From: Nitratireductor luteus
GTDB lineage: Bacteria; Pseudomonadota; Alphaproteobacteria; Rhizobiales; Rhizobiaceae
DNA length: 64,000 nt
Direction: 5' to 3'
NCBI RefSeq assembly: GCF_026162365.1
Contig: NZ_JAOANW010000008.1
Span: forward strand, 1 to 64,000
The number at the start of each line of letters is the position of its first letter. Position 1 is the stretch's first letter. The notes beneath the pieces are model-generated. The model saw nothing but the letters and a program-made list of their open reading frames with translations, was not told the DNA's origin and ran no database searches. Positions 2,945 through 52,776 of the stretch are shown in pieces. The position numbers and the translations under genes are program-made.

Positions 2945-3137
2945 CCCTGTTCTCCAGATTGGGCCGGTTTTCCAGACGGGCCCGCGTCCGCGGCGCGGAC
3001 GGAATTGAGCTCGGCCCTTGTGGCAAACGGAGGTTCGCGCCGCAAGAGCCCTGCGTGTTCACCTAGCAACATGAATCGATTGAATAAATATGACAGCGCG
3101 AGAGGAATGCCAGCTCTCGTGTCGTATCGTGGGGGGT

Positions 3138-4562: not shown

Positions 4563-4575
4563 AACAGTTTTGACG

Positions 4576-4597
4576 AACTGTACTGGATTGTATCTGG
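4576..4597. promoter_or_regulatory. Probable MocR operator (direct repeat)
   Basis: The short intergenic region between the MocR regulator and the EamA transporter holds two near-identical half-sites in tandem, TGTACTGG at 4579-4586 and TGTATCTGG at 4589-4597. Direct repeats of this kind between divergent MocR and EamA genes are typical MocR binding sites. The repeat is seen directly; binding is inferred. Confidence 0.45.
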
Positions 4598-4650
4598 CAA
4601 CGCCATCCGCAGCCGCCGATAACAGCCGAAAACGACACGGGATTCATGAA

Positions 4651-5514: not shown

Positions 5515-5532
5515 CGGGGCACGCGGCCCCGC
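5514..5532. terminator. Hairpin between convergent EamA and hom genes
   Basis: A perfect 7-bp GC stem, GCGGGGC at 5514-5520 and GCCCCGC at 5526-5532, with a 5-nt loop sits between two convergent stop codons. No clear U-tract follows, so its terminator role is inferred from position and stem strength. Confidence 0.45.
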
Positions 5533-5535
5533 CCC

Positions 5536-6846: not shown

Positions 6847-6947
6847 AACGGGATAACCCCTCCGATCATTCCTGGAAGTGACTGTTGAAATTCTAGCTTC
6901 GTCCTGATGCACGATGTCCGAAAAGTCCGCAACTTTCCGGCATCGCG

Positions 6948-8165
6948 CTATCTGCGCGCGCTCAGCGGCACGACGTTGTCGGCGTTCTGCGCGGCGGATG
7001 CAAGGAAGCGCTTGATGCTGCGGGCAGCCTGGCGGATGCGATGCTCGTTTTCCACAAGCGCGATGCGCACATAATCATCGCCGTGCTCGCCGAAGCCGAT
7101 GCCGGGCGCCACCGCCACGTCCGCCTGCTCGACCAGGAGCTTGGAGAATTCGAGCGACCCCATGGCCTTGAACGGCTCGGGGATCGGCGCCCAGGCGAAC
7201 ATGGTGGCCGGCGGCGGCGGGACGTGCCAGCCGGCCCTGCCGAAGGAATCCACCAGCACGTCGCGGCGGCGGCGATAGACCGAGCGCACCTCGTCGATCT
7301 CCGCCCCGTCCGAGTTGAGCCCCGCGGTCGCGGCAACCTGGATGGGCGTGAACGCGCCGTAGTCGAGATAGGACTTCACCCGCGAAAGCGCGGAGATCAG
7401 CCTTTCATTGCCGACAGCGAAGCCCATGCGCCAGCCGGGCATGGAAAAGGTCTTCGACATGGAGGTGAACTCGACCGTCACGTCCATCGCGCCCGGAACC
7501 TGGAGCACGGAAGGCGGCGGCGCGCCCTCGAAATAGATCTCCGCATAGGCAAGGTCGGAAAGGATGATGATGTCGTTCTTGCGGGCGAAGGCCACCACAT
7601 CCTTGTAGAAATCGAGCGTCGCCACACAGGCCGTCGGGTTCGACGGGTAGTTGAGGATCAGCGCCAGCGGCTTGGGAATGGAATGGCGTACGGCCCGCTC
7701 CAGCGCCGGGATGAAGCCTTCATCGGGCTCGGCCTGCATGGAGCGGATAACGCCGCCCGACATGATGAAGCCGAAGGCGTGGATCGGATAGGTCGGGTTG
7801 GGGCAAAGCACCACGTCGCCCGGCGCCGTGATCGCCTGCGCCATGTTGGCGAAACCTTCCTTCGAGCCCAGCGTGGCCACGATCTGGCTCTCGGGATCGA
7901 GCTTCACGCCAAAGCGCCGCGCGTAGTAGGCGGCCTGGGCGCGGCGCAGGCCGGGAATGCCCCTCGACGAGGAGTAGCGGTGCGTGCGCGGGTCGCGCAC
8001 GACCTCGCAAAGCTTGTCGACGATGGATTTCGGCGTCGGAAGGTCGGGATTGCCCATGCCGAGGTCGATGATGTCGGCGCCGCGCGAGCGAGCGCTGGCC
8101 TTGAGCCGGTTCACCTGCTCGAAGACATAGGGCGGCAGCCTGCGGACCTTGTGAAACTCTTCCAT
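6948..8165 (-). CDS. LL-diaminopimelate aminotransferase / AlaC-type class I aminotransferase
   Basis: This is a PLP-dependent fold-type I aminotransferase of 405 aa. It shows the opening DLGMGNPDLPTP, the NYPSNPT motif that contacts PLP and substrate, the Schiff-base lysine in SMSKTFSMPGW near residue 237, and the carboxylate-binding arginine region near VRIAL. Rhizobial members of this group are annotated either as LL-diaminopimelate aminotransferases or as alanine transaminases. Its position before homoserine dehydrogenase fits aspartate-family amino-acid metabolism. Exact substrate preference cannot be read from the sequence. Confidence 0.9.
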   Translation of the reverse strand: MEEFHKVRRLPPYVFEQVNRLKASARSRGADIIDLGMGNPDLPTPKSIVDKLCEVVRDPRTHRYSSSRGIPGLRRAQAAYYARRFGVKLDPESQIVATLGSKEGFANMAQAITAPGDVVLCPNPTYPIHAFGFIMSGGVIRSMQAEPDEGFIPALERAVRHSIPKPLALILNYPSNPTACVATLDFYKDVVAFARKNDIIILSDLAYAEIYFEGAPPPSVLQVPGAMDVTVEFTSMSKTFSMPGWRMGFAVGNERLISALSRVKSYLDYGAFTPIQVAATAGLNSDGAEIDEVRSVYRRRRDVLVDSFGRAGWHVPPPPATMFAWAPIPEPFKAMGSLEFSKLLVEQADVAVAPGIGFGEHGDDYVRIALVENEHRIRQAARSIKRFLASAAQNADNVVPLSARR

Positions 8166-8240
8166 AGCCCTGTTCCATATAGCATTTTGCAGTCAGGTGG
8201 ACCCACCTGACGTCCGCATAAATGCGGAAAACAAAGAGAT

Positions 8241-8280
8241 AGAGCGTCCTTTATGCGTCCGAATGGACGCATGGCGCTCT
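8241..8280. repeat. Intergenic palindromic repeat (rhizobial type)
   Basis: The sequence folds into a long stem: AGAGCG at 8241-8246 pairs with CGCTCT at 8275-8280, and inside it ATGCGTCC at 8253-8260 pairs with GGACGCAT at 8265-8272 around a GAAT loop. It lies in the gap upstream of the aminotransferase gene. I recall very similar elements scattered through Hyphomicrobiales intergenic regions, but cannot count copies beyond this window. Confidence 0.6.
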
Positions 8281-8351
8281 AGTGAGAGATCGCCGCTCTA
8301 TATACCCGTTCGCGATACCGGTCGATAGAAGAAGGCGGCGAACGATCTGCC

Positions 8352-8741
8352 CTATTCCGTCGCCTCGATCTCGCGCTGCGCTTCATCGCCATGCTGTAGG
8401 GCGAGCCGCCGCAGCCGCTCGCGCTCGGAGGCCGCCTGTCCGGCAGAAGCAGCGCTGCCCTGGCGAGCCCGCGCCGCCGCTAGATCGTCGGTGAGCGCGG
8501 CGCGGTCTTCGTCGCTGAGTTGCTCGAAAGCCGGCTCGGCACGTATATTGAGATTGGGGTAGCCGTCGGGCTGTGTCGGTTGGGCGGCGGCGGGCGGTGG
8601 CAGGACTGCCGCGGTAGGTTGCGGGGCGATCTCATCGAGCGCCATGGTCGAGCAGGAACCGGACGCGGCCAGAAAACCGGCGCCGAATGCGGCGCGGATT
8701 GCGATTATGCAATAATTCCGGCGCGGTCTCGCGATTTTCAT
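8352..8741 (-). CDS. Small hypothetical lipoprotein
   Basis: This 129-aa protein has a basic N-terminus, a hydrophobic segment and a lipobox-like ASGSC with the cysteine at residue 30, so it is probably lipidated and anchored in the envelope. The rest is a proline/alanine-rich linker followed by a charged, probably helical C-terminus that begins at QLSDEDRAALTDDLAAARA. No enzymatic motif is visible. It is divergent from phaC. I do not recognise a named family. Confidence 0.7.
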   Translation of the reverse strand: MKIARPRRNYCIIAIRAAFGAGFLAASGSCSTMALDEIAPQPTAAVLPPPAAAQPTQPDGYPNLNIRAEPAFEQLSDEDRAALTDDLAAARARQGSAASAGQAASERERLRRLALQHGDEAQREIEATE

Positions 8742-8838
8742 ATTGTTTTCCTGGTCAACGCTTTAGGTTTTCATAGGAAGGAAAGACTCTTTCCGCCGCA
8801 GTATGTCAATATAGCGCAACTGGGAGGCAGCGCGATCT

Positions 8839-10668
8839 ATGGTCGACACGAAGAGCGAAAATCGCCGCACGGACGGTCCGCCGGATGTCGAGTCCTACAT
8901 GGTGAAGAACCCGGAGCAATTCGCGCGCAACATGGCAAGGGCACTGGAAGAAGCCGGCAAGGCCGCCGCCCAGTGGACCCGCGCCCGCGAAAGCGGCGAG
9001 GCGGAGGATCCCGCCGCCGAACCGGCGACCGACATGGTGCGCACCTTCTCCAAGCTCACCGAATATTGGCTCTCGGACCCCTCCCGCGCGCTGGAAGCCC
9101 AGACCCGCCTTTTCGGCGCCTATATGGGCATCTGGGCCAATGCCATCCGCAAGCTGAGCGGCGAAGATGCCGTTTCGAGCGGCATCGAGCCTGAGCAGGG
9201 CGACAAGCGCTTTGAGGACCCGGATTGGGCGCGCCACGCCTTTTTCGATTTCCTGAAACAGACCTATCTGGTGACGACCCGCTGGGCCGCCGATCTGGTG
9301 GACGATGCGGAAGGGCTCGACGAGCAGTCGCGGCACAAGGCCCGCTTCTATGTGCGGCAGATCAGCGACGCCCTGTCGCCCAGCAACTTTATCATGACCA
9401 ATCCGCAGCTCCTGCGCGAGACCATGGAAACCGACGGCGAGAACCTGGTGCGCGGCATGCGTATGCTGGCCGAGGACATCGCCGCCGGCAAAGGCGAATT
9501 GCGCCTGCGGCAGGCCGACTATTCGAAATTCGAGGTGGGCAGGAACCTCGCCACCACTCCCGGCAAGGTAGTCGCCAGAAACGAGCTCGCCGAGATCATC
9601 CAATATGCGCCCGCCACGAAAGAGGTGCTGCGCCGCCCGCTGCTGATCGTGCCGCCCTGGATCAACAAGTTCTATATCCTCGACCTCAACGAGAAGCGCT
9701 CCTTCATCCGCTGGGCGGTCGAACAGGGGCACACGGTCTTCGTCATCTCCTGGGTCAACCCGGACGTAAGGCATGGCACCAAGGACTGGGACGACTATAT
9801 CAATGAAGGCATCGGCTTTGCCCTCGACACGATCGCCGAGCGCACCGACGAGCACCAGGCCAATGCTATCGGCTATTGCGTCGGCGGCACGCTGCTGGCA
9901 GCCGCCCTTGCCCTGATGGCACGGGAGGACGACGACCGCATCGCCACCGCCACCTTCTTCACGACGCAGGTGGATTTCACCCACGCCGGCGATCTCAAGG
10001 TTTTCGTCGACGAGGAGCAGGTCAAGGCGGTCGACGAGGCCATGAAGCAGAAGGGTTATCTCGAAGGCAGCCGCATGGCGACCGCCTTCAACATGCTCCG
10101 CGCCCGCGATCTCATCTGGCCCTATGTCGTCAACAACTACCTGCGCGGCCGCGACCCCCTGCCCTTCGACCTGCTCTACTGGAACGCCGATTCGACCCGC
10201 ATGGCCGCCGCCAACCATTCCTACTATCTGCGCAACTGCTATCTGGAGAACAATCTGGCGCGGGGCCGGGCCAAGCTGCGCGGAAAGCGCATCAGCCTCC
10301 AGGACATAAAGATACCCGTCTACAACCTTGCCACCATCGAGGACCATATCGCGCCGGCCAAGTCCGTCTTCACCGGCTCCAGCCTGTTCGGCGGACCGGT
10401 CGAATTCACGCTCGCCGGCTCCGGTCATATTGCCGGAGTGGTTAACCCGCCGGAACTGAACAAGTATCAGTATTGGACCGGGGATCTGAAAGCAGCATCG
10501 CTGGAGGAATGGCTGGAAAAGGCGGTCCCGACGCCCGGCTCCTGGTGGGTTCACTGGCAGGTGTGGATCGAAAAGCAGAACGACGAGCGCGTGTCTGCCC
10601 GCAGATTCGAGCGCGGGAAAAACTTTCTGGGCGAGGCCCCCGGCGACTATGTGCGCGTGCGAATCTAG
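8839..10668 (+). CDS. phaC: Class I poly(3-hydroxyalkanoate) synthase PhaC
   Basis: PhaC polymerises 3-hydroxyacyl-CoA into polyester storage granules at the granule surface. The 609-aa protein has the class I layout: a variable N-terminal helical domain, then an alpha/beta hydrolase domain. The lipase-like box is GYCVGG with the catalytic cysteine at about residue 347. The catalytic aspartate lies in TIEDHIAP and the histidine in GSGHIAGV. A ribosome-binding site (GGAGGC at 8823) precedes the ATG. No phaA, phaB, phasin or phaR gene lies nearby, so precursor supply is encoded elsewhere. Confidence 0.96.
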   Translation: MVDTKSENRRTDGPPDVESYMVKNPEQFARNMARALEEAGKAAAQWTRARESGEAEDPAAEPATDMVRTFSKLTEYWLSDPSRALEAQTRLFGAYMGIWANAIRKLSGEDAVSSGIEPEQGDKRFEDPDWARHAFFDFLKQTYLVTTRWAADLVDDAEGLDEQSRHKARFYVRQISDALSPSNFIMTNPQLLRETMETDGENLVRGMRMLAEDIAAGKGELRLRQADYSKFEVGRNLATTPGKVVARNELAEIIQYAPATKEVLRRPLLIVPPWINKFYILDLNEKRSFIRWAVEQGHTVFVISWVNPDVRHGTKDWDDYINEGIGFALDTIAERTDEHQANAIGYCVGGTLLAAALALMAREDDDRIATATFFTTQVDFTHAGDLKVFVDEEQVKAVDEAMKQKGYLEGSRMATAFNMLRARDLIWPYVVNNYLRGRDPLPFDLLYWNADSTRMAAANHSYYLRNCYLENNLARGRAKLRGKRISLQDIKIPVYNLATIEDHIAPAKSVFTGSSLFGGPVEFTLAGSGHIAGVVNPPELNKYQYWTGDLKAASLEEWLEKAVPTPGSWWVHWQVWIEKQNDERVSARRFERGKNFLGEAPGDYVRVRI

Positions 10669-34103: not shown

Positions 34104-35186
34104 CTAGTGGATTGATTCCAACGTTTGGAACCCTCGGTTTCGTGCAGCGATGATGTCATCGGGATCGGCCTTCCAGATGAATGGTTGCGGGTTCTCGGCA
34201 TTGTATTCACGGACGAAGCGGTTGATGGCGGCCTGAAGATCGACAACGGAATGGAAGACGCCGTGCTTGAGCCTGCGTCGGGTAAGTTTGGCGAAGAAGC
34301 CCTCGACGGCATTGAGCCACGAGCACGAGGTCGGCGTGAAGTGGAAGGTCCAGCGCGGGTGACGGGCGAGCCAGGCGCGGACTTTGTCCTTCTTGTGTGC
34401 CGCGTAGTTGTCGAGGATGACGTGGATGGCCTTGTCCGCCGGCACTTCGCGCTCGATGCGGTTGAGGAAGCGGATGAACTCCTGATGGCGGTGGCGCTGC
34501 ATGTTCTGTCCGATGACCGTACCGTCGAGCACGTTGAGGGCGGCAAACAGCGTTGTCGTGCCGTGCCGTTTGTAATCGTGCGTCATCGTGCCGGCGCGGC
34601 CCTTCTTCATCGGCAGGCCGGGCTGGGTGCGGTCGAGTGCCTGGATCTGCGACTTCTCATCGACCGACAGCACCACTGCATGAGCCGGCGGATCAACATA
34701 CAAGCCGACGATATCTATGAGCTTGTCGGCGAAGGCCGGGTCGTTCGAGAGCTTGAACTGACGCCAGCGATGCGGGCTGAGGCCGTGGGCCTTCCAGATA
34801 CCCTGCACCGTCGACGCCGCGACGCCGGCAACCTTGGCCATCGCGCGCAGCGTCCAGTGGGTCGCCTCATGCGGCGGCGGAGCCTGCGTCAGGCGGAGGA
34901 TCTCGGCGACGCGCGCTGGCGGGACCGGCGCTTTGCCGGGCGGACGGGACCTGTCGCGAAGCAGGCCATCGACGCCTTCGTGCATGAACCGCTCCTGCCA
35001 GCGCCAGACACAGGTCTTGGACTTGCCGGTCTCGGCCATGATTGTCGAGGTGCCCAGACCGCCGCCGCTCAGAAGGACAATGCGAGCCCGCCAGACGTGT
35101 TTTTGCGGACTCCCAGGGGCCGCGACGATCGCTTGCAAGCGCCGACGGTCGCTGGCCGAAATGGTAAAGGAGATGCCATTGCGCAT
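34104..35186 (-). CDS. IS630-family transposase
   Basis: The 360-aa protein has an N-terminal helix-turn-helix (Homeodomain-like, GLGTSTIMAETGKSKTCVWRW), a linker, and the DDE catalytic domain with VLSVDEKSQIQALD, VILDNYAAHKK and the Glu region WLNAVEGFFAKLTRR. All three acidic residues are present and the frame is intact. Its stop codon is formed by the element's terminal CTAG. Confidence 0.92.
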   Translation of the reverse strand: MRNGISFTISASDRRRLQAIVAAPGSPQKHVWRARIVLLSGGGLGTSTIMAETGKSKTCVWRWQERFMHEGVDGLLRDRSRPPGKAPVPPARVAEILRLTQAPPPHEATHWTLRAMAKVAGVAASTVQGIWKAHGLSPHRWRQFKLSNDPAFADKLIDIVGLYVDPPAHAVVLSVDEKSQIQALDRTQPGLPMKKGRAGTMTHDYKRHGTTTLFAALNVLDGTVIGQNMQRHRHQEFIRFLNRIEREVPADKAIHVILDNYAAHKKDKVRAWLARHPRWTFHFTPTSCSWLNAVEGFFAKLTRRRLKHGVFHSVVDLQAAINRFVREYNAENPQPFIWKADPDDIIAARNRGFQTLESIH

Positions 35187-35420: not shown

Positions 35421-36692
35421 ATGCTATCCAGGATTAGGTTGTTACAGATCGGCGACGTGCATTTGCCGACCGCCGCGACCGCTAAGCGCAATATCGATCA
35501 GAAGGACAGCACCTTCTCGGTCGAGCTGCGCAACGTCATCTCTTCGATGCCAACCAAAGTGGTCTTCAAGCAGATACACAAGCTTCTCGAAGAAGGCGGG
35601 GTGGACGCACTGCTGTTTATGGGCGACTTCACCGATCGCGGCGGCCTCGACAACTATGATCGGACGGTGGCCTTCCTGGCGAACTCGCTCCAGATAGGCG
35701 GGGGGCGAAATCATGCCGACGTCCAAGTTGGCATTGTCCCCGGCAACCACGACATCAATCGCGATCTTGCCAAACAGCCAGGCGTCGTAACGAAGTTCGC
35801 TCCGCTGAACGAATATCTGCTCAAATATCGCATGCCGGTATTGCCGGTCGAGCGGACCATCTCGATGACCGTCGGGGGCAGCCACGGTCGTCTCGACATC
35901 AATCTCATGAACAGCTGCTGGGGTTGCGGCTCGTCTGAATACATTCCGAGCGAGTTTCGCGACAATATCAGAAAGGCAATTGAGGCGTCGATCTCGAAGG
36001 GTGGCACGGCGGCGCTACAAGCCTATTATAATCGCCAGTTCGATACACCCGCCTTCTCGAACGAAAGCATCGAGGATATCGTTCAGCGAACGGTGAGGGT
36101 TGATCGTAACGCGCTAATGCTGATCGCCGCCCACCACAATCTGTTACCCCAGCGGCTTACACGCCTTGCGCCTTATACCGAGCTAGTTAATTCGGGTGCG
36201 CTTCGGGCATCGTTGCTCCAGGCGCGACGGCCGATCGTCTACTTGCATGGCCATATCCATGAGGATCCGATTGAAATCGTGTCAGCACCTGCCGGTGAGC
36301 TAGTAATCTGCATTTCGGCGCCTGCTATCCACGATGGCTTTAACCTTCTTGAGTTCAACTTCACTCGCGGTGGTTTGCCGCTTTCGTGCCATGTCAACCC
36401 GTGGCGCTTCAATGGCGCTGGCATCCTTCATCGTAGCTCGGCAAGCTCGATCCCGCTGCTGGGAAGGCGCCGCCGCTCGCATGACGCGAGCCTCGCGAAA
36501 CTTTACGCCCATCTTCTTGCCACTGGTGAAAGCTATTGGAGCGATCTGGTCAGCTTCGCCAAGAGTTTCTTTCCAACCGAGGTCGACGACAACCTGCGCG
36601 AGGCGCTCGAGCTTCTTGTCGCTGACGATTCCGTTGTCGTCGAAAATTACGAGCTGAATCCAACGAACTGGATTGTCCGAGCGAAAATATGA
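35421..36692 (+). CDS. Calcineurin-like metallophosphoesterase (first gene of a three-gene operon)
   Basis: The 423-aa protein has every metal-binding motif of the calcineurin-like family: GDVH (Asp12, His14), GDFTDRGG near residue 68, GNHD near 108, a lone-histidine AHHN near 237 and GHIH near 277. The C-terminal 130 residues form a separate, mostly helical domain. Possible substrates include nucleic acids, cyclic nucleotides and phosphoproteins; the sequence does not decide. Its stop overlaps the start of the ATPase gene by 4 bp. A G-rich segment upstream may serve as ribosome-binding site. It is probably the enzymatic effector of the operon. Confidence 0.85.
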   Translation: MLSRIRLLQIGDVHLPTAATAKRNIDQKDSTFSVELRNVISSMPTKVVFKQIHKLLEEGGVDALLFMGDFTDRGGLDNYDRTVAFLANSLQIGGGRNHADVQVGIVPGNHDINRDLAKQPGVVTKFAPLNEYLLKYRMPVLPVERTISMTVGGSHGRLDINLMNSCWGCGSSEYIPSEFRDNIRKAIEASISKGGTAALQAYYNRQFDTPAFSNESIEDIVQRTVRVDRNALMLIAAHHNLLPQRLTRLAPYTELVNSGALRASLLQARRPIVYLHGHIHEDPIEIVSAPAGELVICISAPAIHDGFNLLEFNFTRGGLPLSCHVNPWRFNGAGILHRSSASSIPLLGRRRRSHDASLAKLYAHLLATGESYWSDLVSFAKSFFPTEVDDNLREALELLVADDSVVVENYELNPTNWIVRAKI

Positions 36693-38809
36693 CGAATTCT
36701 GATCTTAACCCCTTTCGCCCGACAAGATGGGAGCATCATCGTGTGGGGCGCCCGCTCATCTGGTTCACGACAACGCACGACGATCTGACCGGCGACAAGT
36801 CGGTATATGTTTATGGCGGCCGCGGTGTCGGCAAGACCTCGTTGCTCCGCGGGATCTGCTGGGAAGATCTGTGTCACAATGAGTCGCTGCGAATTCAGCG
36901 CAAGCTGTCCGACTTCCAGCATATTGGGGTCTACATCCGGTTCCCGGATCATATTTCCGCGTCGATGTCCCATAGAGCATGGGAGGCGATGTTCCCGCAG
37001 TCGCCCGACCCCATCCTGCTTTTTCACCGTTTCTTCTCGCTGGCCATCGAACTCACCTGTATCGAGCGCACGCTTGATGCCTGCCACGCTCTCCGAATGG
37101 CGGGCGCGGTCACATATCAGCCGAGCCAGGAACTGCGCATAGTCGAGGATCTGGTCCGCGAGTATCCAGAACACGCGACCTTTGCCGGGGAAGCTCCGCG
37201 GACCTTTGCCGAACTGGCCAGAACGGCACGGACAATCGTGCGGCGCATGAATGCCGCATGCGGTGAAGGTGCGGTAGCGGGTTTCCTGAGCCAGCTCCCG
37301 TCGCGCGAGCCATACCAACTGCTGTCTTTCCTGGTCGAACGGCTGGGAGAGACAGTCCAGATGGTGACACAGTTCGAGCCGCGCCAAGTTAGCTTCAAAT
37401 TTTGTCTCGACGATTGCGAGGCGCTGAGCCCCGTTCAGCGTAAGAGCCTCAATACGCTGGTACGCTTGAGCCGGGCGCCGGTGTCCTGGGTGATAAGTTC
37501 GGTTGGCGCGGTGCTCGACGATAGCGATACGTTTATCGAAGCGCAGCCGCTCACAGATGCGGATCGCAAGGTCCTGCTTCTGGACAATCGCGACACGGCT
37601 GACTTCCGCTCGCTTTGCCAGTCGGTAGTGAGCCTGCGCCTGCTATTTTCGCTTCCCGACGATCTGCGCCAAGTGCACACGCCCGATGATGTTTCGGGCT
37701 TCTTCGATCTGAACCAGCGCCTGGGCACGCGTGACGTGAACGATATGATGTGGCAGCTCGTGCGCCGGTCGCATCGTCCCCTTGCGGGACAAGTGCGATT
37801 GGCGGCCGAGCGGCTGTATCACGCGATCCGCAAGACCGACCCCAAGTCGGCGCGAAAATTCGACGTCAAGGCCGGTCGGCTGCCATACTACGAAGCATAC
37901 TTGCTGCTTCACTGGCGCGGGCGGGAGGACGCCTTTACGCCGACGTTCAACGAAAGCGACATCGGGCGCCTCGATGGCTACGGCACGATCTATGCCGATC
38001 AAGCGTTTAATGCATGGCTGCGGCGCAAGCAGCAGAATGCGCTGCTCCACCTCGCAGCTAGCTTACGCAGTCGCCGGATTCCGCTTGGGGGGTCGAACGT
38101 GATCGTCGCGCTCGCTGACAGCTCGATCCGCGACTTCCTCGAGATCATGGGGGAAATCTACGAGCAGTATGTCACCAATCATAAGTTCAATCGCTCTGAT
38201 CCGGTGAGTCTAGTTCGATTTGCGACCTCGCGCACGCCCATTTCCTGGCAGATCCAGAATGACGGTATCTATGCGGCAAGCGAAAGTTACTATTTAGGAA
38301 TGGCTGCACGCCCTGACATCGATTCCGACGTCGTCGCGCGATTGGTAAGCGGGCTCGGCAGCTTTACCGCATTTCTACAGAGCAACCCCGGCGACCCGCG
38401 TGTTTTTGGCGCCGCGGAACGGGGCATATTCCTCATCGACTATCCGTCGGCAACCTCGCCACAGGTCAATGAAGAAGGCATGTATGTCAGCGCCGCGATT
38501 CGCCAAGCGGTCCTTGCCGGCTATCTGCGGATGGTCGAGACGCCAAGGGCGCTTCGCGCGGTGCAAGCGGACCAGGTCTCGAAGCCCATCGCTTTTCGGC
38601 TACATCGGCGTTTTGCCCCCCACTTCCGCTTCTCGTATCGCGGCGCCTATGAGGCGGTTCGCGTCTCGCCAAGAGATTTGTATAGCCTCTGCCTCCGATC
38701 CGAGGACATGAGTCCGTTCAGTTGGGCCAAGACGATGGCAGGGATCAGTGGGCGGTTCGGCGATCAGATCTCCCTCCCCTTTGCGGAGGCAGCCGATGAC
38801 GATAACTGA
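36689..38809 (+). CDS. ORC/CDC6-like P-loop ATPase (second gene of the operon)
   Basis: The 706-aa protein opens with NPFRPTRWEHH, a feature I associate with ORC/CDC6-type accessory ATPases. It then has a Walker A motif, GGRGVGKTS, at about residues 43-51 and a Walker B-like FCLDDCEAL near 238. A long C-terminal region (about residues 340-700) is helical and may be a sensor or DNA-binding part. It is translated from an ATGA overlap with the metallophosphoesterase gene and overlaps the next start by 14 bp, so the three proteins are probably made in fixed ratio. A sensor or switch role is inferred. Confidence 0.75.
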   Translation: MTNSDLNPFRPTRWEHHRVGRPLIWFTTTHDDLTGDKSVYVYGGRGVGKTSLLRGICWEDLCHNESLRIQRKLSDFQHIGVYIRFPDHISASMSHRAWEAMFPQSPDPILLFHRFFSLAIELTCIERTLDACHALRMAGAVTYQPSQELRIVEDLVREYPEHATFAGEAPRTFAELARTARTIVRRMNAACGEGAVAGFLSQLPSREPYQLLSFLVERLGETVQMVTQFEPRQVSFKFCLDDCEALSPVQRKSLNTLVRLSRAPVSWVISSVGAVLDDSDTFIEAQPLTDADRKVLLLDNRDTADFRSLCQSVVSLRLLFSLPDDLRQVHTPDDVSGFFDLNQRLGTRDVNDMMWQLVRRSHRPLAGQVRLAAERLYHAIRKTDPKSARKFDVKAGRLPYYEAYLLLHWRGREDAFTPTFNESDIGRLDGYGTIYADQAFNAWLRRKQQNALLHLAASLRSRRIPLGGSNVIVALADSSIRDFLEIMGEIYEQYVTNHKFNRSDPVSLVRFATSRTPISWQIQNDGIYAASESYYLGMAARPDIDSDVVARLVSGLGSFTAFLQSNPGDPRVFGAAERGIFLIDYPSATSPQVNEEGMYVSAAIRQAVLAGYLRMVETPRALRAVQADQVSKPIAFRLHRRFAPHFRFSYRGAYEAVRVSPRDLYSLCLRSEDMSPFSWAKTMAGISGRFGDQISLPFAEAADDDN

Positions 38810-39851
38810 GGCCGCGATCGGGGGTTTAACGCTCCGACAGCAGGAACTGACAGATGGATGGAAGGCGCCACGCAAATATGATCTTCGGATCGCGGCGCTT
38901 AGCTGGGAGAGCCGGGCGACAGCGACATCGACGCGGTTGGCTGGAGACTTGCCCGCCTTCGATCTAATCAAGTTCAAGTCGGCTTCGACCGAAATCGAAA
39001 CAATGAAAGCTGAATCTCGCGCAACATTCGAGATGCTAGCGCCTATTCGGTCAGTTCTGGATCTCGATCAATCGACAATGATTCAGGAGAACTTCGTAGC
39101 TCTCGAAGCCTGGTTTCGCGAGAGATATATGGATTTGGGCAGGCCGCTCAAGATCTTGATCGACATAAGCTGCATTCCGAAAAGCTATCTGCTGTTTCTT
39201 GTCGGGCTCGGCTTCACGCGAGATTATTTCGCCTGCCTGGACTGTGTTTACGCGGCTGGCCAGTATGATCTTATAAGGGATCATGTCGTGAACGGTGCTC
39301 CTGCCATCGTTGGACCGCGTGCGCTAGTGTCGCTTGGCGACTGGCGCTCGACGCTCATTCCTTATCTGACGGCCGCCGAATACCTCCCGGGCAGTTCCGA
39401 CCTGATCGTCGCAATGGGCGGGGAGTTCGGGCTATCGCTGCCGTTCATTGAGAGGGTCGAGCCGGGCCGGCTCGATCTCATATTCATCGAGGAGACGGCG
39501 CCAAGCGACGATCGGCCGATGTTGGAGAGCGAGCGCTTGGCGCTCAAGGGCCTAACTTCTGCGCCAAACGCAACGCGCGGCGACTATAGCCTTTTGGATG
39601 TGATCAGCGTGGCGAATCGCGCAGTAAACTTTTCACGCGCTGGCCCGAGCGCGGGCACGACCGCCATGGCGCTTGGCTCGAAGCCGCACGCACTGGCACT
39701 CGCGGTCGCATCGCTGTCCGAAGCAAAGATGAACGTCATCACGCGCGTGCCGGGCTCCTACACTGCGATCGACGTTAAGCCGACCGGCCGCATGCTGTTC
39801 GCTCAGATCGAGGATCGATTCGATCCGTGCAATTATATCGATCTCCCATAA
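38796..39851 (+). CDS. Unknown two-lobed protein (third gene of the operon)
   Basis: The 351-aa protein has no family I can name. Two alternating strand/helix halves are visible: YDLRIAALSWESRATAT with ILIDISCIPKSYLLFLVG, then SDLIVAMGGEFGLSLPFI with GTTAMALGSKPHALALAVAS. The layout suggests two Rossmann-like lobes, and the last segment loosely recalls ligand-binding CARF-type motifs, which is speculative. ATG 38796 lies inside the end of the ATPase gene; the frame is open further upstream, but that part is inside the ATPase coding region. It could be a sensor, adaptor or enzyme. Confidence 0.65.
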   Translation: MTITEAAIGGLTLRQQELTDGWKAPRKYDLRIAALSWESRATATSTRLAGDLPAFDLIKFKSASTEIETMKAESRATFEMLAPIRSVLDLDQSTMIQENFVALEAWFRERYMDLGRPLKILIDISCIPKSYLLFLVGLGFTRDYFACLDCVYAAGQYDLIRDHVVNGAPAIVGPRALVSLGDWRSTLIPYLTAAEYLPGSSDLIVAMGGEFGLSLPFIERVEPGRLDLIFIEETAPSDDRPMLESERLALKGLTSAPNATRGDYSLLDVISVANRAVNFSRAGPSAGTTAMALGSKPHALALAVASLSEAKMNVITRVPGSYTAIDVKPTGRMLFAQIEDRFDPCNYIDLP

Positions 39852-40165: not shown

Positions 40166-41142
40166 CGGATTGTGTTGAAAAACGCGCTTGAAACAGGTGT
40201 TTGGCGCTGATTCAGTTTTCCTGGTGATTTGGGAGATTGATGCCGATGATGGGACCACGCCAGGAAGCGCAAGCGGCACTGTTTTGCGCGTTCTCGCTTG
40301 AGGAGCACGTGCCCGCCGATCATCTGCTGCGGGTGATCGATCGCTTTGTCGATCTGTCCGGCATTCGTGCCCACCTTCGCCCATTCTACAGCTCCACGGG
40401 GCGGCCTTCGATCGACCCGGAACTGATGATCCGCATGCTGATTGTCGGCTACTGCATGGGCATCCGTTCGGAGCGGCGTTTGTGCGAAGAGGTGCATCTG
40501 AACCTGGCCTATCGCTGGTTCTGCCGCCTTGATTTGACGGATGCGGTTCCAGACCATTCGAGCTTCTCGAAGAACCGGCACGGCCGGTTCCGCGAGAGCG
40601 ATCTGTTCCGACAGCTGTTCGAGAGCGTCGTCGAGCGCTGCATCGCCGAAGGTCTGGTCGGGGGTGAACGCTTTGCCGTCGATGCCAGTCTGATCCGCGC
40701 CGACGCCAACAAACAACCCGGACCGGCATCTGCAAGGACGGCTTCATCCGCTACTACGCCAGCAAGAAGGACTGCTCGCGTTGCGCCTTGAAGGCCCAAT
40801 GCACGCCCAACCAGCCGGCGCGGAAGATCGCCCGCCACATCCACGAAGGCGCCCGTAATCTCGCCCGTGAGATCACGAGCAGCGATGCCTATGTCGCCTC
40901 AAGCCGAGCAAGAAAGAAGGTCGAGATGATCTTCGCGCATCTCAAGCGCATCTTGAAGCTCGATCGGCTCCGATTACAGGGACCCAACGGCGCCCGCGAC
41001 GAATTCCACTTGGCAGCTACCGCTCAAAACCTCCGCAAGCTGGCCAAACTGGTCCCAACTCCGGCCTAAAGGGACACGGCAAGAAATATCGAGCCGATGC
41101 CACGCCGATTGACAAGGCAGCCGACTTTTTCAACAAAATCGG
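40166..41142 (+). mobile_element. Internally deleted IS1182-family element
   Basis: Imperfect terminal repeats with GTTGAAAAA cores (CGGATTGTGTTGAAAAACG at 40166-40184 and its counterpart at 41124-41142) define 977 bp. Complete members are about 1.6 kb, so roughly 0.6 kb is missing. The ends remain recognisable; movement would need a transposase in trans. Confidence 0.75.
40237..41069 (+). pseudogene. IS1182 transposase, internally deleted
   Basis: The N-terminal half, with the DUF772-type domain (SLEEHVPADHLLRVIDRF, GRPSIDPELMIRMLI) and the first catalytic Asp in FAVDASLIRADANK, runs from 40237. Near 40720 it jumps to the zinc-ribbon-like part SKKDCSRCALKAQC and the C-terminal KKVEMIFAHLKRIL with the catalytic Glu, in another frame, ending at 41069. 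The segment with the second Asp is gone, so it is inactive. Confidence 0.8.
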
Positions 41143-44773: not shown

Positions 44774-45236
44774 TGGGTTCCTCATGAAATGTTTAAGCAG
44801 GAACCTGGTAGCATTCACTGCAATGGCCATCAACGCAACCATTTCATGTTCATCCAGCTGTTTCACCAGAACACTTATGGACGTCTATTGCGCTTCGCGA
44901 AGCGGACGCTTGTAATCCTTTGATCGCACCTCATGGCGAAGTCCGGACTGCGGGGTTCCGGTCCATGTCTCTGACCAGGGTCTTGCCCTCCCCGGCACGC
45001 AGGCGTGCATCGATCCGCAAATTCTCGGCGTCCCCGACAAGCCATGTTTCGGCGATCGACTCGATGTGCGCAGGGCCCTCATGGTGGCGGGTTTCAACCG
45101 ATCGTTGAACCGGCGCACAGCCGTCTGAAAAGGAAGGTGGGCCCGCCGGGCCATTCGAGGTTGCCGGACCCTGCCGGGGAACCATCGGGCCGGCTCAGCG
45201 TTCCACCCGTGGATGGATGCTTGCGAAAGGTCGATA
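44774..45236. other. Divergent promoter region, no gene seen
   Basis: About 460 bp lie between the TRAP binding-protein gene and glgE, transcribed in opposite directions. It should hold both promoters, including that of the seven-gene glucan/trehalose operon. No clear -35/-10 pair or operator palindrome could be singled out. Confidence 0.5.
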
Positions 45237-47225
45237 ATGGAGGCGTTCGACCCAGGAGTCCTGCGCACGCTCGCGGCCAGCCGTGTTGCGATCGAGGCTG
45301 TCGAGCCCACCGTTGGAGGGGGAAGATTTGCTGCAAAATGCGTCGTCGGCATGCCCTTCGAGGTCGAGGCCGACATTTTCTGTGATGGGCATGATGTGAT
45401 CTCCGCAGCGGTGCTTTTCCGCCGCCGCGGTGTCGGTGAGTGGAACAATGCACCGATGTATCACACAGTGAACGACCGCTGGCGCGCATCGGTAACCGTT
45501 ACGGAAGCGGGGCACCATGAATTCAAGATTGCCGCCTGGCGCGATCTCTTCGCAAGTTGGCTTGTGGAAGTGGGGAAGAAGCGTACGGCGGGGCAGAAAA
45601 TCTCGCTCGAGCTGGAGGAAGGCAGGCGCCTCGTCGAGCAGACACTGGCAACGCGCGGAAGCGACGACGCCGACCGTCGAGCGCTCGCGGCGCTTCTTTC
45701 CGAAGCCGGACCGCAGGTGCCGGAGGGCGACGTTCTCGCCGTTCTGACGAGCGACGAAATGGCGGTGCTGATGCGGCGCTGCGCCGTGAAGGTGAACCTG
45801 ACCGAGACCGAAGCTGCCTTCCCCATCTTCGCAGACCGCGAGAAGGCTGCTTTCAGCGCCTGGTATGAGCTCATGCCGCGTTCGCAATCCGGCGATCCAA
45901 ATCGGCACGGTACGTTCAACGATGTCATCGACCGCCTTCCCTATGTGCGCGGCCTCGGCTTCGATGTACTTTACTTTCCGCCGATCCATCCGATCGGCAG
46001 GACCAATCGCAAAGGGCCCAACAACAGTCTTGTCGCCGGACCAGAAGATCCCGGCAGCCCCTACGCCATCGGTTCGGAAGAAGGCGGACATGATGCCATC
46101 CACCCCCAGCTCGGCACGTTCAAGGATTTCTCGCGGCTCGTGAAGGCCGCGCGTAAGCACGGGCTGGAAATCGCGCTCGACTTCGCCATCCAATGCTCCC
46201 CCGACCATCCGTGGGTCAGTGAGCATCCGGAGTGGTTCGATTGGCGGCCGGACGGAACGATCAGATTCGCTGAAAATCCGCCGAAGAAATACGAAGACAT
46301 TGTCAACGTCCATTTCTATCGCGACGCCATTCCCGGCCTCTGGTACGCCCTGCGCGATGTCGTACTGTTCTGGCTCGACAAAGGCGTACGCATCTTCCGT
46401 GTCGACAATCCCCACACCAAACCGCTGCCCTTCTGGGAGTGGATGATCGAGGAGGTGCGCCAGGCGGACCCGGGCGTCATTTTCCTGGCGGAAGCCTTTA
46501 CGCGGCCGAAGATGATGAAAAGGCTCGCCAAGGTCGGTTTCAACCAATCCTATTCCTACTTTACCTGGCGCAACACCAAGCAGGAACTTACCGAGTATCT
46601 GGCTGAACTGACACGCGAGGAATGCCGGCATTACATGCGGCCGAACTTCTTCGTGAACACGCCCGACATCAATCCCCGCTACTTGCAGATGAGCGGCCGG
46701 CCGGGCTTCCAGGTGCGGCTCGTTCTGGCGGCGACGCTCGGCGGCAATTACGGCGTCTATAACGGATTCGAGATATGCGAGGCAGCCGCCCTGCCGGGCA
46801 AGGAAGAATATCTCAATTCCGAAAAGTATGAGATCCGGGCCTGGGACTTCGACCAGCAGGGCAACATCAAGGCCGACATCATCTTCGTCAACCATCTGCG
46901 CCGAGAACATCCTGCGCTGCGCCACTTCACGAATCTGAAGTTCTACAATGCGTGGAACGACGCCATTCTCTACTACTCCAAGTTCACGGACGACCTATCG
47001 AACTTCCTGCTCTTTGCGGTCAATCTCGACCCGCACAACGTGCAGTCGGCAGATTTCGAAGTCCCGTTGTGGGAGTTCGGACTGCCCGACGAAGCGACCA
47101 TCCAGGCAGAAGATCTGGTCACGGGACAGCCCTTCGCCTGGACGGGCAAAATTCAGCACATGTCGCTTGATCCGGCTACGCGCCCCTACATGGCGTGGAG
47201 ACTTAAAGCACCTGGGAGGAATTGA
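45237..47225 (+). CDS. glgE: Alpha-1,4-glucan:maltose-1-phosphate maltosyltransferase GlgE
   Basis: GlgE extends alpha-1,4-glucans with maltose-1-phosphate and releases phosphate. The 662-aa protein has the GH13_3 layout: an N-terminal beta-sandwich domain (about 1-110), a helical insert and the barrel. Catalytic residues are the Asp in FRVDNPHTKPLPFWEW and the Glu in FLAEAFTRPKMM; the ready-made substrate binding segment KGPNNSLVAGPEDPGSPYAI is also present. ATG 45237 is preferred over an in-frame ATG 24 bp upstream. Its stop overlaps the treS start (TGATG). The donor is supplied by the next gene's maltokinase domain. Confidence 0.94.
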   Translation: MEAFDPGVLRTLAASRVAIEAVEPTVGGGRFAAKCVVGMPFEVEADIFCDGHDVISAAVLFRRRGVGEWNNAPMYHTVNDRWRASVTVTEAGHHEFKIAAWRDLFASWLVEVGKKRTAGQKISLELEEGRRLVEQTLATRGSDDADRRALAALLSEAGPQVPEGDVLAVLTSDEMAVLMRRCAVKVNLTETEAAFPIFADREKAAFSAWYELMPRSQSGDPNRHGTFNDVIDRLPYVRGLGFDVLYFPPIHPIGRTNRKGPNNSLVAGPEDPGSPYAIGSEEGGHDAIHPQLGTFKDFSRLVKAARKHGLEIALDFAIQCSPDHPWVSEHPEWFDWRPDGTIRFAENPPKKYEDIVNVHFYRDAIPGLWYALRDVVLFWLDKGVRIFRVDNPHTKPLPFWEWMIEEVRQADPGVIFLAEAFTRPKMMKRLAKVGFNQSYSYFTWRNTKQELTEYLAELTREECRHYMRPNFFVNTPDINPRYLQMSGRPGFQVRLVLAATLGGNYGVYNGFEICEAAALPGKEEYLNSEKYEIRAWDFDQQGNIKADIIFVNHLRREHPALRHFTNLKFYNAWNDAILYYSKFTDDLSNFLLFAVNLDPHNVQSADFEVPLWEFGLPDEATIQAEDLVTGQPFAWTGKIQHMSLDPATRPYMAWRLKAPGRN

Positions 47226-50200
47226 TGGACTTGACGGCAACGCGCGAAAGACCGCGCGCAACGGCGCCTGTTGATACCTACCGGGACGAACAGTTCTTGC
47301 GCCAGCCCGACTGGTACAAGGACGCCATCATTTATCAATTGCATATCAAGGCATTCCAGGACTCGAACGGCGACGGCATCGGTGATTTCATCGGTCTTCT
47401 AAAAAGGTTGGACTACATAAAGCGACTTGGCGTCAACGCCATCTGGGTCCTGCCGTTCTATCCTTCGCCGCTGCGCGATGACGGCTATGACATTTCCGAT
47501 TATCGCGCGATCAATCCTTCCTACGGCACGATGCGCGACTTCCGCCGTTTCGTGACCGAGGCGCACAAGTGCGGCATCCGCGTCATCACCGAGCTCGTCA
47601 TCAACCATACCTCCGACCAGCACCCCTGGTTCCAGAAGGCTCGAAAGGCCAAGAAGGGTTCTGCGGCGCGCAATTTCTATGTCTGGAACGACGACGACGA
47701 GCGTTATCCGGAGACCCGCATAATCTTCCTCGATACGGAGAAATCCAATTGGACCTGGGATCCGGAAGCCGGCCAGTTCTTTTGGCATCGCTTCTATTCG
47801 CACCAGCCCGATCTCAACTTCGACAATCCAAGGGTGCTCGACGAGGTCGTGAAGGTAATGCACCACTGGCTGGAGACCGGGGTCGACGGCTTGAGACTCG
47901 ATGCGATTCCCTACCTGGTGGAACGCGACGGAACCAACAACGAAAACCTGCCGGAAACGCATGAAGTCCTGAAGAAGATCAGGACAGCGCTCGATGAGCG
48001 CTACCCCGACAGGATGCTGTTGGCCGAAGCCAACCAATGGCCGGAGGACACGCGACCCTATTTCGGCGAAGGCGATGAGTGTCACATGGCCTTCCACTTC
48101 CCGTTGATGCCGCGCATCTACATGGCTCTGGCACAGGAAGACCGGCATCCCATCAGCGATATCATGCGGCAAACGCCGGAGATTCCCGAGCCTTGCCAAT
48201 GGGCGATCTTCCTGCGCAATCACGACGAACTGACGCTGGAAATGGTGACGGACAGCGAGCGTGATTATCTCTGGCGCACCTACGCCGAAGACGCCCGAGC
48301 GCGCATCAATCTCGGCATCCGCCGTCGGCTAGCGCCGCTCATGCAAAACGACCGGCGCAAGATCGAGTTGATGAACGCGCTCCTGCTTTCCATGCCAGGC
48401 ACGCCCGTCATCTATTACGGCGACGAGCTCGGCATGGGCGACAATATCTATCTCGGCGACCGCGATGGGGTGCGCACCCCGATGCAGTGGTCGCCGGACC
48501 GCAACGGCGGTTTCTCACGAGCCAACCCCCAGGCCCTCTATCTGCCGCCCATCATGGATCCGGTGTACGGCTACCAGACGATCAATGTTGAGGCGCAGGA
48601 GGCCGACACCTCGTCCCTGCTCAACTGGGTCAGGCGCATGGTAACGGTGCGCAGGCAGCACAAGGCTTTCGGGCGTGGCGACTTCGCCATGCTCTATCCG
48701 CGCAATCGCCGTATTCTGGCATATACGCGCAGCCACGATGAGGAGACCATCCTGTGCGTGGCAAACTTGTCGCGCTCCGCTCAGGCTGTGGAACTCAACC
48801 TGTCGCAGTTTAGTGGCCGCGTGCCCGTGGAAATCATCAGTCAATCACCATTCCCGCCGATCGGCGACCTGCCCTACATGCTCACCCTGTCGGGCTATGG
48901 TGCGTTCTGGTTCGTGCTCGCCGACGAGGCGCAGGCGCCCCACTGGCATATCGATGTCCCAGACCCCCTGCCCGAATTCATCACGCTGACCCTGAGAAGC
49001 GGCAGGATCGAAAAGGTGCTGGAAGGGCGCGAGCGGCAGCAACTGGAGCGGGATGTTCTGCCGCAATTTCTGCCGCTCCAGCGCTGGTTCGGCGGCAAGG
49101 GCGAAGAAATCCACTCCGTGCAAACCCATGAATTGGCAGGTCTCGACGAAGGGCTTCTCTCTATTGTCGATGTCGAGTTCGCACATGGACCCGCACAGAG
49201 CTATTTTCTGCCGCTCAGCGTGTTGTGGGGCGAGGAAAATGTGCAGTTCGGCGCCCCGACCCTCTCCGCCACGTTGGCACGAACACGAAAAGGGCCGCAG
49301 CTTGGCGCCCTGATCGACGCGTCCCATGATGCGCGATTCGCGGCGGGTCTGATGCGCATGATGCAAAGCGGCGAGACGTTGCCGGCCATCGACGGAACTC
49401 TTCGCTTCTACGGCAACGACCAACTGGCGGCCATGACGTTCGATGAACCTCCGGCCACGCTCAAGGGCGAACAAAGCAACGTTTCCGTAGCTTTTGGAAA
49501 ACAGGCATTCGTGAAAATATTTCGCCGTCTGCGTTCGGGCGAACAGCCGGAAGTGGAAATGGCGCGCTTCCTGACAGAGGAAGCTGGCTTCAAGAATACA
49601 CCGGCGTTCCTCGGCATGGTTGAATACGAAACCGGCGCCGGCGACCGGTGCATCCTGGCCAGCGTTTCCGCCTTTGTCGAAAACCAGGGGGATGCCTGGA
49701 GCGCCTTTGTCCACGCGCTCGAGAGACAGATCGAAGACGAGGTTATAGGGCAACAAGCCTCGGGTCCATTGCCCGGCGCCGCGGGAGACGGCGAAAGTGC
49801 CTTCACCTATCCGCTCAACCTCTTGCGCAAGCTCGGTGAACGAACGGGCGAAATGCATGCAGCCCTCGCCATCGACACTGGTAATGAGGCGTTCCGATGT
49901 GCGCCAGTCGCAAAGGAGGATATTGCCGCCTGGATCGAGGACACGCACAGGCAGCTGGGTGCTGCACGAGAAGGTCTTCGCAACGCCCGGACGCGGCTTT
50001 CGCCCGCTGCACAACACGCTGCCGAGCAATTCGAGGCCTGTGCGCGTGATATCAAGAAGCGGCTGGACAGGCTGGGCAAAATGACACCGTCGGGCCGGAA
50101 GTCGCGCATTCACGGCGACTATCACCTGGGCCAGGTGCTGGTCTGCGAGCAGGATCTCTTCATCATCGATTTCGAAGGCGAGCCGGGGCGCGGCCTTTCC

Positions 50201-50563
50201 GAACGCCGTGAAAAGACTTCGCCGCTTCGCGACGTAGCCGGCATGCTGCGATCCTTCGACTATGCTGCCTGGACGGCCGTCCGGCAATTGGGTGCCCGGC
50301 TCCCCGACCAATCGCACGCTGGCGCGCCGCTGGCGCATGCATGGCGCGCGCGCATGACGAACGAGTTTCTTGACGGCTACTTCGCCACAGAAAAGGGCGC
50401 AGCGAACCAGTTCCAAGACAAAAGGGCACGGGAGAGGTGCCTGGAATTGTTCTTGCTGCAGAAGGCGCTTTACGAAATCAACTACGAGCTCTCCAATCGC
50501 CCCGACTGGGTGGCCGTCCCGCTCCAGGGCGTTCTCGCACTGATCCAAGGGGACCAGTCATGA
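47225..50563 (+). CDS. treS: Trehalose synthase-maltokinase fusion (TreS-Mak)
   Basis: This is a bifunctional 1112-aa protein. The N-terminal GH13 part (about 1-550) is trehalose synthase/isomerase, interconverting trehalose and maltose: [16 protein letters not shown] (Asp nucleophile), [11 protein letters not shown] (Glu) and [11 protein letters not shown]. The C-terminal part (about 640-1110) is maltokinase, which makes maltose-1-phosphate for Glg[13 protein letters not shown], the kinase-like [10 protein letters not shown] and [13 protein letters not shown] 47225 follows the glgE stop directly. Such fusions are typical of the GlgE pathway. Confidence 0.95.
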
Positions 50564-52776
50564 ATCCTGACACAGACACGATGGAACCGTGGCGGCTTGA
50601 CGATCCGCATGCCATTGCCGCCCTCGTTGCTGGTCGGCACGGCAACCCGTTCGCTGTTTTGGGCCCGCACATGCAGGCCGGCGGCATCACTCTGCGCGTG
50701 CTGCGTCCGGAGGCTGAGACGGCTGAGGCGTTCGATCCCAAGAACGGAAAGGTGCTGGTCAGGCTGCTCAGGCGCCATGCGCGCGGCTTCTTCGAAGGAT
50801 TTATCGCCCGCCGCAAGAAGGTCCCGCGCTACCGGCTGCGCTTCACACGCGGTGACGATACGTGGGAGGAGGAAGATCCCTATCGTTTTCCCAGCACGTT
50901 TGGCGAACTTGATCTTCACCTGCTTGGCGAAGGACGCCACCTTCGCCTCTATGAAGTGCTCGGCGCCCATCCCATGGCCTGCGACGGTGTGGCGGGCACA
51001 CGTTTTGCCGTGTGGGCGCCGAATGCCAGCCGCGTCAGCGTAATCGGCAGTTTCAATGGCTGGGACGGGCGGCGACACCAGATGCGCCTGCACCCGGGCA
51101 ATGGCGTTTGGGAAATATTCGTTCCCGAAATCGGCCCCGGCGAGCTCTACAAATTCGAGATCGTCGGCTCGCACGGCGAGTTGCTGCCCGGCAAAGCCGA
51201 TCCATTGGCATTTCAATGCGAGGTTCCGCCGGCCACAGGGTCAATCATACACGGTTGCGCACCCCGCCAATGGGCAGACGAGGCGTGGATGGAGAAACGC
51301 GCCGCCCGCAACAGCCGGGACGCTCCGATCTCGATCTACGAGGTGCATTTGGGCTCGTGGCGGCGCCATGAGGACGGCAGCTATCTGACGTATGAGGAGC
51401 TTTCCGACGAGCTCATTCCCCATGTGAAGGATCTCGGCTTCACCCACATCGAGTGCCTCCCCGTCAGCGAACATCCCTTCTCCGGATCGTGGGGCTACCA
51501 GCCGATCGGGCTTTACGCGCCTACCAGCCGCTACGGCCGGCCCGAAGACTTCGCCCGCTTTGTCGAGCGCTGCCACAGCGAGGGCCTGGGGGTCATCGTC
51601 GACTGGGTACCGGCACATTTTCCCTCCGATGCCCACGGTCTGGCCAGCTTCGACGGCGAAGCCCTCTACGAGTATGCAGACCCGCGCAAAGGATTTCATC
51701 GCGACTGGAAAACCCTGATCTACAATTTCGGCCGCCGCGAGGTGGCCAATTTCCTCACCGCCAACGCCCTCTTCTGGCTTGATCGCTATCACATCGATGC
51801 ACTGCGCGTGGATGCGGTGGCCTCGATGCTCTATCTCGACTACAGCCGCCAGCCCGGCGAGTGGGAACCGAACGTCCACGGTGGAAACGAGAACCTGGAG
51901 GCCATTACCTTCCTGCGCGATACAAATGTGGCGCTTTTCGGCAATCATCCCGGCGCCACCTCGGTCGCAGAGGAGTCAACGGCCTTTTCCGGTGTATCGC
52001 GACCCGTTCACACCGGCGGACTGGGCTTCGGCTACAAATGGAACATGGGCTGGATGCACGACACGCTGGATTATATGGGACGAGATCCCATCCACCGACG
52101 GCATCATCACAACCAAATGACCTTCGGCCTGCACTATGCCTTCTCCGAGAACTTCATCCTGCCGCTGAGCCACGACGAAGTGGTTCACGGCAAGGGCTCG
52201 CTGCTGGGGCGCATGCCGGGCGACCGCTGGCAGAAATTCGCCAATCTGCGCGCCTACTTCACCTTCATGTGGACCCACCCCGGCAAGAAGCTCCTGTTCA
52301 TGGGCGGCGAGTTCGCACAGGAGCGGGAGTGGAACCACGATTGGCAGCTGGACTGGTATCACCTGGACGATCCGATGCATCGCGGCGTGCGCGATCTCAT
52401 CCGCGACCTCAACACGGTCTACCGCAACCAGAAGGCCCTTCATCAGCTCGACTGCGAACCGGAGGGATTCGAGTGGATCGACGCTTCCGATCCGAGCTTG
52501 AGCGCCTTCTTCTACCTGCGCAAGGGCAGCGAAGGATCGAATCCGGTCGTTGTTGCCTGCAACTTCACGCCGGTAGTGCGAGAGGTGCATCGTATCGGGC
52601 TGCCCTGCCCCGGCAAATGGCATGAGATCCTTAACAGCGACGATGTCCGCTATGGGGGTTCAGGCGTGACAAACGGAACCGTGGAAGCCACGGAGGAGCC
52701 TTGGCACGGACGATTTGCTTCGGCAGCCTTGCGGCTCCCTCCCCTTGGGGCGATCATCCTTACCAGCGAGTCATAA
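50560..52776 (+). CDS. glgB: 1,4-alpha-glucan branching enzyme GlgB
   Basis: GlgB introduces alpha-1,6 branches into glucan. The 738-aa protein has an N-terminal N1 domain, a CBM48 domain ([21 protein letters not shown]) and the GH13_9 barrel with [16 protein letters not shown] (Asp), [10 protein letters not shown] (Glu) and [13 protein letters not shown]. The start ATG at 50560 overlaps the treS stop by 4 bp; the frame is open upstream, but that part lies inside treS. It acts on the linear chains made by GlgE. Confidence 0.96.

Follow-up and report, generated by a model that had tools for sequence, protein, structure and literature searches.

Profile searches indicate that a three-gene operon of Nitratireductor luteus is one type of a modular effector-ATPase-CARF6 family, in which a sensor and an ATPase are fixed and the enzyme is exchangeable. 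The operon lies on the forward strand of the window (the whole stretch of 64,000 nucleotides that was analysed) and encodes a 423-aa calcineurin-like metallophosphoesterase (MPE; 35421-36692), the presumed effector, a 706-aa ORC/Cdc6-like ATPase (36689-38809), the presumed relay, and a 351-aa CARF6-type two-lobed sensor (38796-39851). The MPE, ATPase and CARF6 genes form one conserved unit that is often found on mobile DNA.

The operon and its three proteins

The MPE and ATPase genes share four bases, ATGA (36689-36692, +), in which the start of the ATPase gene and the stop of the MPE gene coincide, and the ATPase and CARF6 genes overlap by 14 bases (38796-38809, +), from the CARF6 ATG (38796-38798) to the TGA stop of the ATPase (38807-38809). 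The initial annotation had described three same-strand genes joined by these two overlaps, and the coordinates match to the base. The sequence GCGGAGG stands seven bases upstream of the CARF6 ATG; a longer open frame starting at GTG 38748 gives 367 aa, compared with 351 aa from the ATG. Across 23 junction sets (the window and 22 loci with distinct third proteins, with starts picked by a script), the MPE and ATPase genes overlapped by up to 4 bases or stood at most 2 bases apart, and the ATPase and CARF6 genes overlapped by up to 14 bases or stood at most 26 bases apart. The arrangement is more than chance, since relatives with proteins 20-55% identical to those of the window have the genes in the same order.

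The operon is flanked on one side by an intact DDE_3 transposase gene (34104-35186, -), of which a partial, 75%-identical relative lies at G000:C10 (G000 being the genome of the window), and on the other by a DUF772 transposase gene (40237-41069, +) that reads in two frames. In 1-kb windows, G+C was 0.56-0.61 over the operon and 0.56-0.65 in the examined flanks, and no sharp break in base composition was found between them. Further along the window (45213-52776, +), genes for GlgE, a trehalose synthase-maltokinase-like protein and GlgB follow in series and resemble an ordinary glycogen/trehalose operon.

The first protein scored over the Pfam cut-off for PF00149 (46.5 bits versus 21.5) and has all of its metal-binding motifs (GDVH, GDFTDR, GNHD, HH and GHIH). 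Its catalytic residues D12, H14, G68, D69, G108-N109-H110-D111, H238-H239, H276-G277-H278 and H280 were invariant in 20/20 aligned MPEs, bearing out the earlier description of a complete metallophosphoesterase. A sequence search of the PDB matched it to LMO2642 (2xmo, 4.7e-6). Membership in the DS9_1 family of anti-phage phosphoesterases (NCBIfam NF053862) was ruled out: the match covered a short stretch and reached 35.9 bits, far under the curated cut-off of 420 bits.

The second protein scored 248.7 bits with PF24389 (ORC-CDC6-like), for which the Pfam cut-off is 27. Walker A residues G43, R45, G46, G48, K49 and T50 and Walker B residues D241-D242-C243-E244 were invariant in 23/23 aligned ATPases, and the annotated length of 706 aa for an ATPase with both motifs was exact. 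Matches in NCBIfam and PHROGs were weak and partial, a sequence search of the PDB gave nothing useful, and no match was found in phage records. The AlphaFold2 model (pLDDT 86.0) had no fold match at E<=0.001; its top rows were ORC subunits, clamp loaders and RdrA (E 0.023), all weak.

The third protein, previously described as having no nameable family, is a CARF6-type sensor according to its profile match and its predicted CARF-like fold. It matched the PADLOC model CARF6 (PDLC01919) at 1.2e-13 over essentially its full length (residues 7-338 on model positions 7-334 of 348), and the same model was matched by 23/23 members of the third-protein alignment (best 3.3e-220). Pfam, NCBIfam and PHROGs gave nothing up to E=1, and a sequence search of the PDB gave nothing useful. 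As a single query against 289 genomes of the class, the protein recovered the window's own copy only, so single-sequence searches are too weak to find its relatives. The AlphaFold2 model had a mean pLDDT of 88.3 and a pTM of 0.89, with residues 160-177 unsure. Foldseek aligned it with Csm6, Cam1, Can2 and Csa3 at probabilities of 0.95-1.00 and with Cap4 and Cap5 at 0.63-0.69; it should be noted that these CARF rows had E values of 0.005 or worse and that the good alignments span about one lobe (Cam1: 137 columns, rmsd 4.3). The two Foldseek rows at E<=0.001 were transporter chains and were discounted (TM-score 0.23-0.24, rmsd 18), as was a universal stress protein in the third row.

In the third protein, residues R40, D123 and K296 were invariant in a mixed set (n=7), and R, D and K at the corresponding motifs were invariant in 14 third proteins with the window excluded; D123 is replaced by E in some close relatives. 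We infer that these three residues line a putative ligand pocket. The genome of the window has a second, N-terminally shortened CARF6 gene (G000:C40:126117-126878; L137 7543-8418, -) with no ATPase of at least 200 aa adjoining it, apparently what remains of another system of this type.

Distribution of the unit and its enzyme slot

The ATPase alignment was used for a pattern-based search of the genome collection, which yielded 39 loci, many of them near-identical Mesorhizobium copies; between them they encode 22 third proteins that are intact and distinct. Directly upstream of the ATPase, all 39 loci had a phosphoesterase of one family (clipped where the contig ends in L018, L022 and L030), and the CARF6 gene lay directly downstream, giving the order MPE-ATPase-CARF6, in 37. 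The two exceptions were a locus at a contig end (L013) and one in which the ATPase frame was broken off and CARF6 was not found (L025). ATPase matches were also present in 34 plasmid records, nine of which were examined, many of the remaining 25 being near-identical Agrobacterium isolates. Eight of these nine carried the full triplet; in the other, on a Sphingobium fuliginis plasmid (L006), the ATPase was broken and CARF6 was not found. Both viral contigs with relatives (2/2) carried the triplet. Homologs lacking conserved adjacency had been named as evidence against the initial reading; instead, the triplet stays together in genomes (37/39) and on plasmids (8/9). Some copies are broken: L006 and L025 have a truncated ATPase, L033 and L034 a phosphoesterase split between two frames, and in L034 the CARF6 gene is likewise in two frames.

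The ATPase family was then used as the anchor. PF24389 matched over the cut-off in 14 of 398 genomes of the phylum and at E<=1e-8 in 15 of 397 genomes of the order. Once matches limited to a short P-loop stretch had been removed, 16 genomes had a substantial match (15 scored above 60 bits; G308 reached 39.8 bits across 347 positions of the profile), representing 15 independent loci because the DNA of G395 and G540 is 99.98% identical. CARF6 adjoined the ATPase downstream, or was fused behind it, in 16/16 of these genomes: a CARF6-family gene directly followed the ATPase in 15, and in G552 (L086) a 1239-aa protein matched the PADLOC model CARF6--CARF_STK_AAA over residues 12-1228, a single chain comprising kinase, ATPase and CARF6. 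The enzyme slot before the ATPase held a phosphoesterase in four genomes (G000, G395, G540, G959), PRTase-CE in seven (G308, G322, G455, G641, G725, G802, G882), HD-CE in three (G328, G624, G892) and, in the other two (G552, G693), a kinase in fusion with the ATPase. G490, G620 and PF24389 matches below the cut-off were left out of this neighbour check, and CARF6 was not found among the neighbours of the short-match loci in G593 (L088), G334 (L089), G861 (L115) and the second place in G802 (L116). The initial annotation had viewed the operon as a set of enzyme, P-loop protein and ligand binder of the kind found on mobile elements. That view holds for a conserved, often mobile unit with a sensor-like CARF6 protein, with the amendment that the phosphoesterase slot is filled by other enzymes elsewhere.

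The CARF6 profile was checked on seven PF24389 loci and two viral contigs outside its building set and matched 9/9, one of which (L091) is close kin of a building-set member (L028). Three proteins for which the best stretch was short (L110, L112 and L113) matched PADLOC CARF6 at 2.9e-40, 3.6e-61 and 1.9e-17, and distant third proteins scanned singly against the CARF6 models matched in 8/8 cases, as did L081; the matches of L082-L085 and L091 are known as pooled counts and not per protein. In the reverse direction, the CARF6 profile found 14 loci in 13 of the 397 order genomes while missing the fused CARF6 of G552. Twelve of the 14 lie next to a PF24389 ATPase, one (G956, L138) is beside an apparent diverged ATPase behind a PRTase-like gene (by eye), and the last is the shortened copy at G000:C40, with no ATPase beside it.

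Further genes accompany some members of the family. PRTase-CE types (L084, L085, L087, L114 and L138, the last at 2510-9571) often have an extra long SIS + HAD-like protein, and L085 and L138 additionally have a PfkB-like kinase (both by eye). A Druantia DruA-family gene (PF14236, 8.9e-77; L113 8723-10156, -) lies directly before a kinase-ATPase-CARF6 pair. A DNA-methyltransferase was ruled out as a fixed part of the MPE type: a crude motif search, which overlooked methyltransferase-like genes visible by eye in L081 and L083, was positive in just 2/48 close loci (L019 and L029 among L003-L050) and in 6/17 distant or viral loci (L082, L090, L109-L112).

Phylogenetic trees of the ATPase and CARF6 were built for 27 chosen rows, not every locus, and carried long-branch warnings. 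Both trees recovered a clade of 14 phosphoesterase rows, an HD clade, a clade of four PRTase rows and the kinase pair, the last with lower support on the CARF6 tree (88/76). Effector labels required four changes on each tree, against a shuffled mean of 11.0. Path distances of ATPase and CARF6 were correlated over the 27 rows (r=0.85) and within 14 phosphoesterase rows (r=0.95), with 0/2000 permutations as high in either case, although shared ancestry of the loci can by itself push such values up. The agreement of the trees, the few label changes and the correlated distances indicate that sensor and ATPase travel together and that the enzyme has been exchanged rarely and long ago. For the divergent phosphoesterase system L110, an independent recruitment of the enzyme was not supported (p-AU 0.31 on the CARF6 tree).

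Genomic setting, proposed mechanism and alternatives

Defence or toxin-antitoxin genes were named within 8 kb on each side in 6/8 complete plasmid neighbourhoods (L004, L005, L007, L009, L010, L011), the broken copy L006 being excluded; L003 and L008 had no listed names. The kinds counted were toxin-antitoxin, restriction, Abi, TrlF, ThiF/Mov34, anti-phage dGTPase and 7-cyano-7-deazaguanine synthase. Control stretches of equal length, half a plasmid away, named listed defence genes in 0/8 cases, with the word list made after viewing the first set and one control (L124) containing SIR2 and FRG-domain genes, which would score under a wider list. The enrichment of defence genes near the plasmid copies is therefore suggestive.

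An inferred role in defence is well supported. We give an even chance to the reading that the operon is a three-protein system against mobile elements, probably phages, in which the phosphoesterase attacks nucleotides or nucleic acid. The fixed gene order and the existence of a single-chain version suggest that a signal passes from sensor to ATPase to enzyme. Infection would make or alter a nucleotide-type ligand, which would bind the two-lobed CARF6 protein; ligand-bound CARF6 would then act on the ATP-bound ORC/Cdc6-like ATPase, which would probably oligomerise and license the phosphoesterase. Hydrolysis of nucleotides (or nucleic acid) by the phosphoesterase would halt phage replication, likely at the price of growth arrest or cell death. 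An immune effector role through NTP depletion has been proposed for phosphoesterases (PMC12839542), and an effector role in other NTP-dependent conflict systems for calcineurin-superfamily phosphoesterases (PMC7159879). Given these precedents, attack on nucleotides is the best-fitting reading of the MPE, with a nuclease as its main rival.

That rival keeps the defence module and makes the phosphoesterase a nuclease with Mre11/SbcD-like chemistry, put on foreign DNA by the ATPase, with CARF6 as a regulatory subunit. The ATPase fold weakly resembles DNA-binding ORC and clamp loaders, which is consistent with it, as is the suggestion in PMC10853773 that ORC/Cdc6 ATPases of other conflict systems ring DNA. 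The MPE also bears a weak, partial likeness to SbcD models (NCBIfam, PHROGs), but these matches fall far under the cut-offs, and the same slot is taken by the non-nucleases PRTase-CE, HD-CE and kinase. We consider this alternative unlikely, though it is the one that survives best. It is much less probable that the phosphoesterase switches the system off by degrading the CARF6 ligand in the manner of a ring nuclease, with harm coming from the ATPase or another protein: calcineurin-like enzymes can cleave cyclic nucleotides and the MPE weakly resembles the cAMP phosphodiesterase model PRK11148 (NCBIfam), but a PRTase or kinase in the same slot would presumably not destroy a cyclic nucleotide. 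A role outside defence, in plasmid maintenance, replication or stress with the ORC-like ATPase handling DNA, is equally improbable; the ORC/Cdc6-like character of the ATPase and the 34 matching plasmid records agree with it, whereas the rarity of PF24389 (15/397 order genomes at E<=1e-8), its varied sites on plasmids and chromosomes, the defence or toxin-antitoxin genes in 6/8 plasmid neighbourhoods and the CARF-type sensor argue against it.

Points against the defence reading with nucleotide attack are that the operon itself has no ligand-making enzyme and that the CARF6 fold matches are modest. The genome of the window had no match to the Cas10-palm model PF22335 or the SMODS model PF18144 (one Cas10 model and one cyclase model), which speaks against Cas10 or a CD-NTase as the supplier there. 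Elsewhere such a supply is possible, as PF22335 was over the cut-off in 5/26 genomes searched and PF18144 in 2/26. The CARF6 ligand may come from the phage or from another enzyme, or it may be non-cyclic.

Relation to known systems

The operon fits a known, predicted kind of system. Like the PRTase-CE (PF24390) and HD-CE (PF24391) systems, it has a PF24389 ATPase and the order enzyme-ATPase-CARF6, and PF24389, PF24390 and PF24391 are consecutive Pfam entries; it differs from both in its enzyme, a calcineurin-like phosphoesterase. The CE nucleotide-targeting effectors, Calcineurin-CE included, reportedly go back to Nicastro et al. 2023, and those authors have likely already noticed the phosphoesterase type. 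The initial annotation did not recognise the combination as a named defence system. This stands insofar as no description of the MPE-ATPase-CARF6 combination, or of phage protection by it, was found in the literature searched, the coverage of which is incomplete for the likeliest sources; however, its parts are named, as PF24389, as CARF6 and by a slot shared with the Pfam CE effectors.

The PADLOC fusion CARF6--CARF_STK_AAA has kinase, ATPase and CARF6 in the order of the operon and shares its sensor family, whereas the operon has three separate genes and a phosphoesterase in place of the kinase. A single-chain kinase-AAA+-CARF protein family is described in Makarova et al. 2014 (PMC4012209). 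With the type III CRISPR ancillary proteins Csm6, Cam1, Can2 and Csa3, the third protein shares a predicted CARF-type sensor fold, but the operon has no CRISPR genes, its effector is a separate gene reached via the ATPase, and Cas10-palm was not found in the genome of the window. The CBASS SAVED sensors Cap4 and Cap5 have a similar two-lobed CARF-like fold (probability 0.63-0.69); in contrast to CBASS, SMODS was not found in that genome and the sensor has no fused endonuclease. Furthermore, RADAR also places a large ATPase beside a presumed nucleotide-acting enzyme, with a weak RdrA fold match (E 0.023), but the partner in the operon is a phosphoesterase rather than a deaminase, and a CARF6 gene is added.

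The present analysis adds an identity for the third protein and a counted sensor-ATPase core with an exchangeable enzyme slot, which joins three library labels (PF24389, CARF6 and the CE effectors) into one testable module. It also makes testable the question of what a CARF sensor reads where the genome shows no Cas10-palm or SMODS match. More tentatively, we speculate that CARF6 and the ORC/Cdc6-like ATPase could be a self-contained immune core without a dedicated cyclase, in which CARF6 would read a phage-made or distorted nucleotide and the ATPase would signal whichever enzyme lies upstream, be it a phosphoesterase, phosphohydrolase, PRTase or kinase. If true, this core would be a plug-in chassis set apart from type III CRISPR and CBASS.
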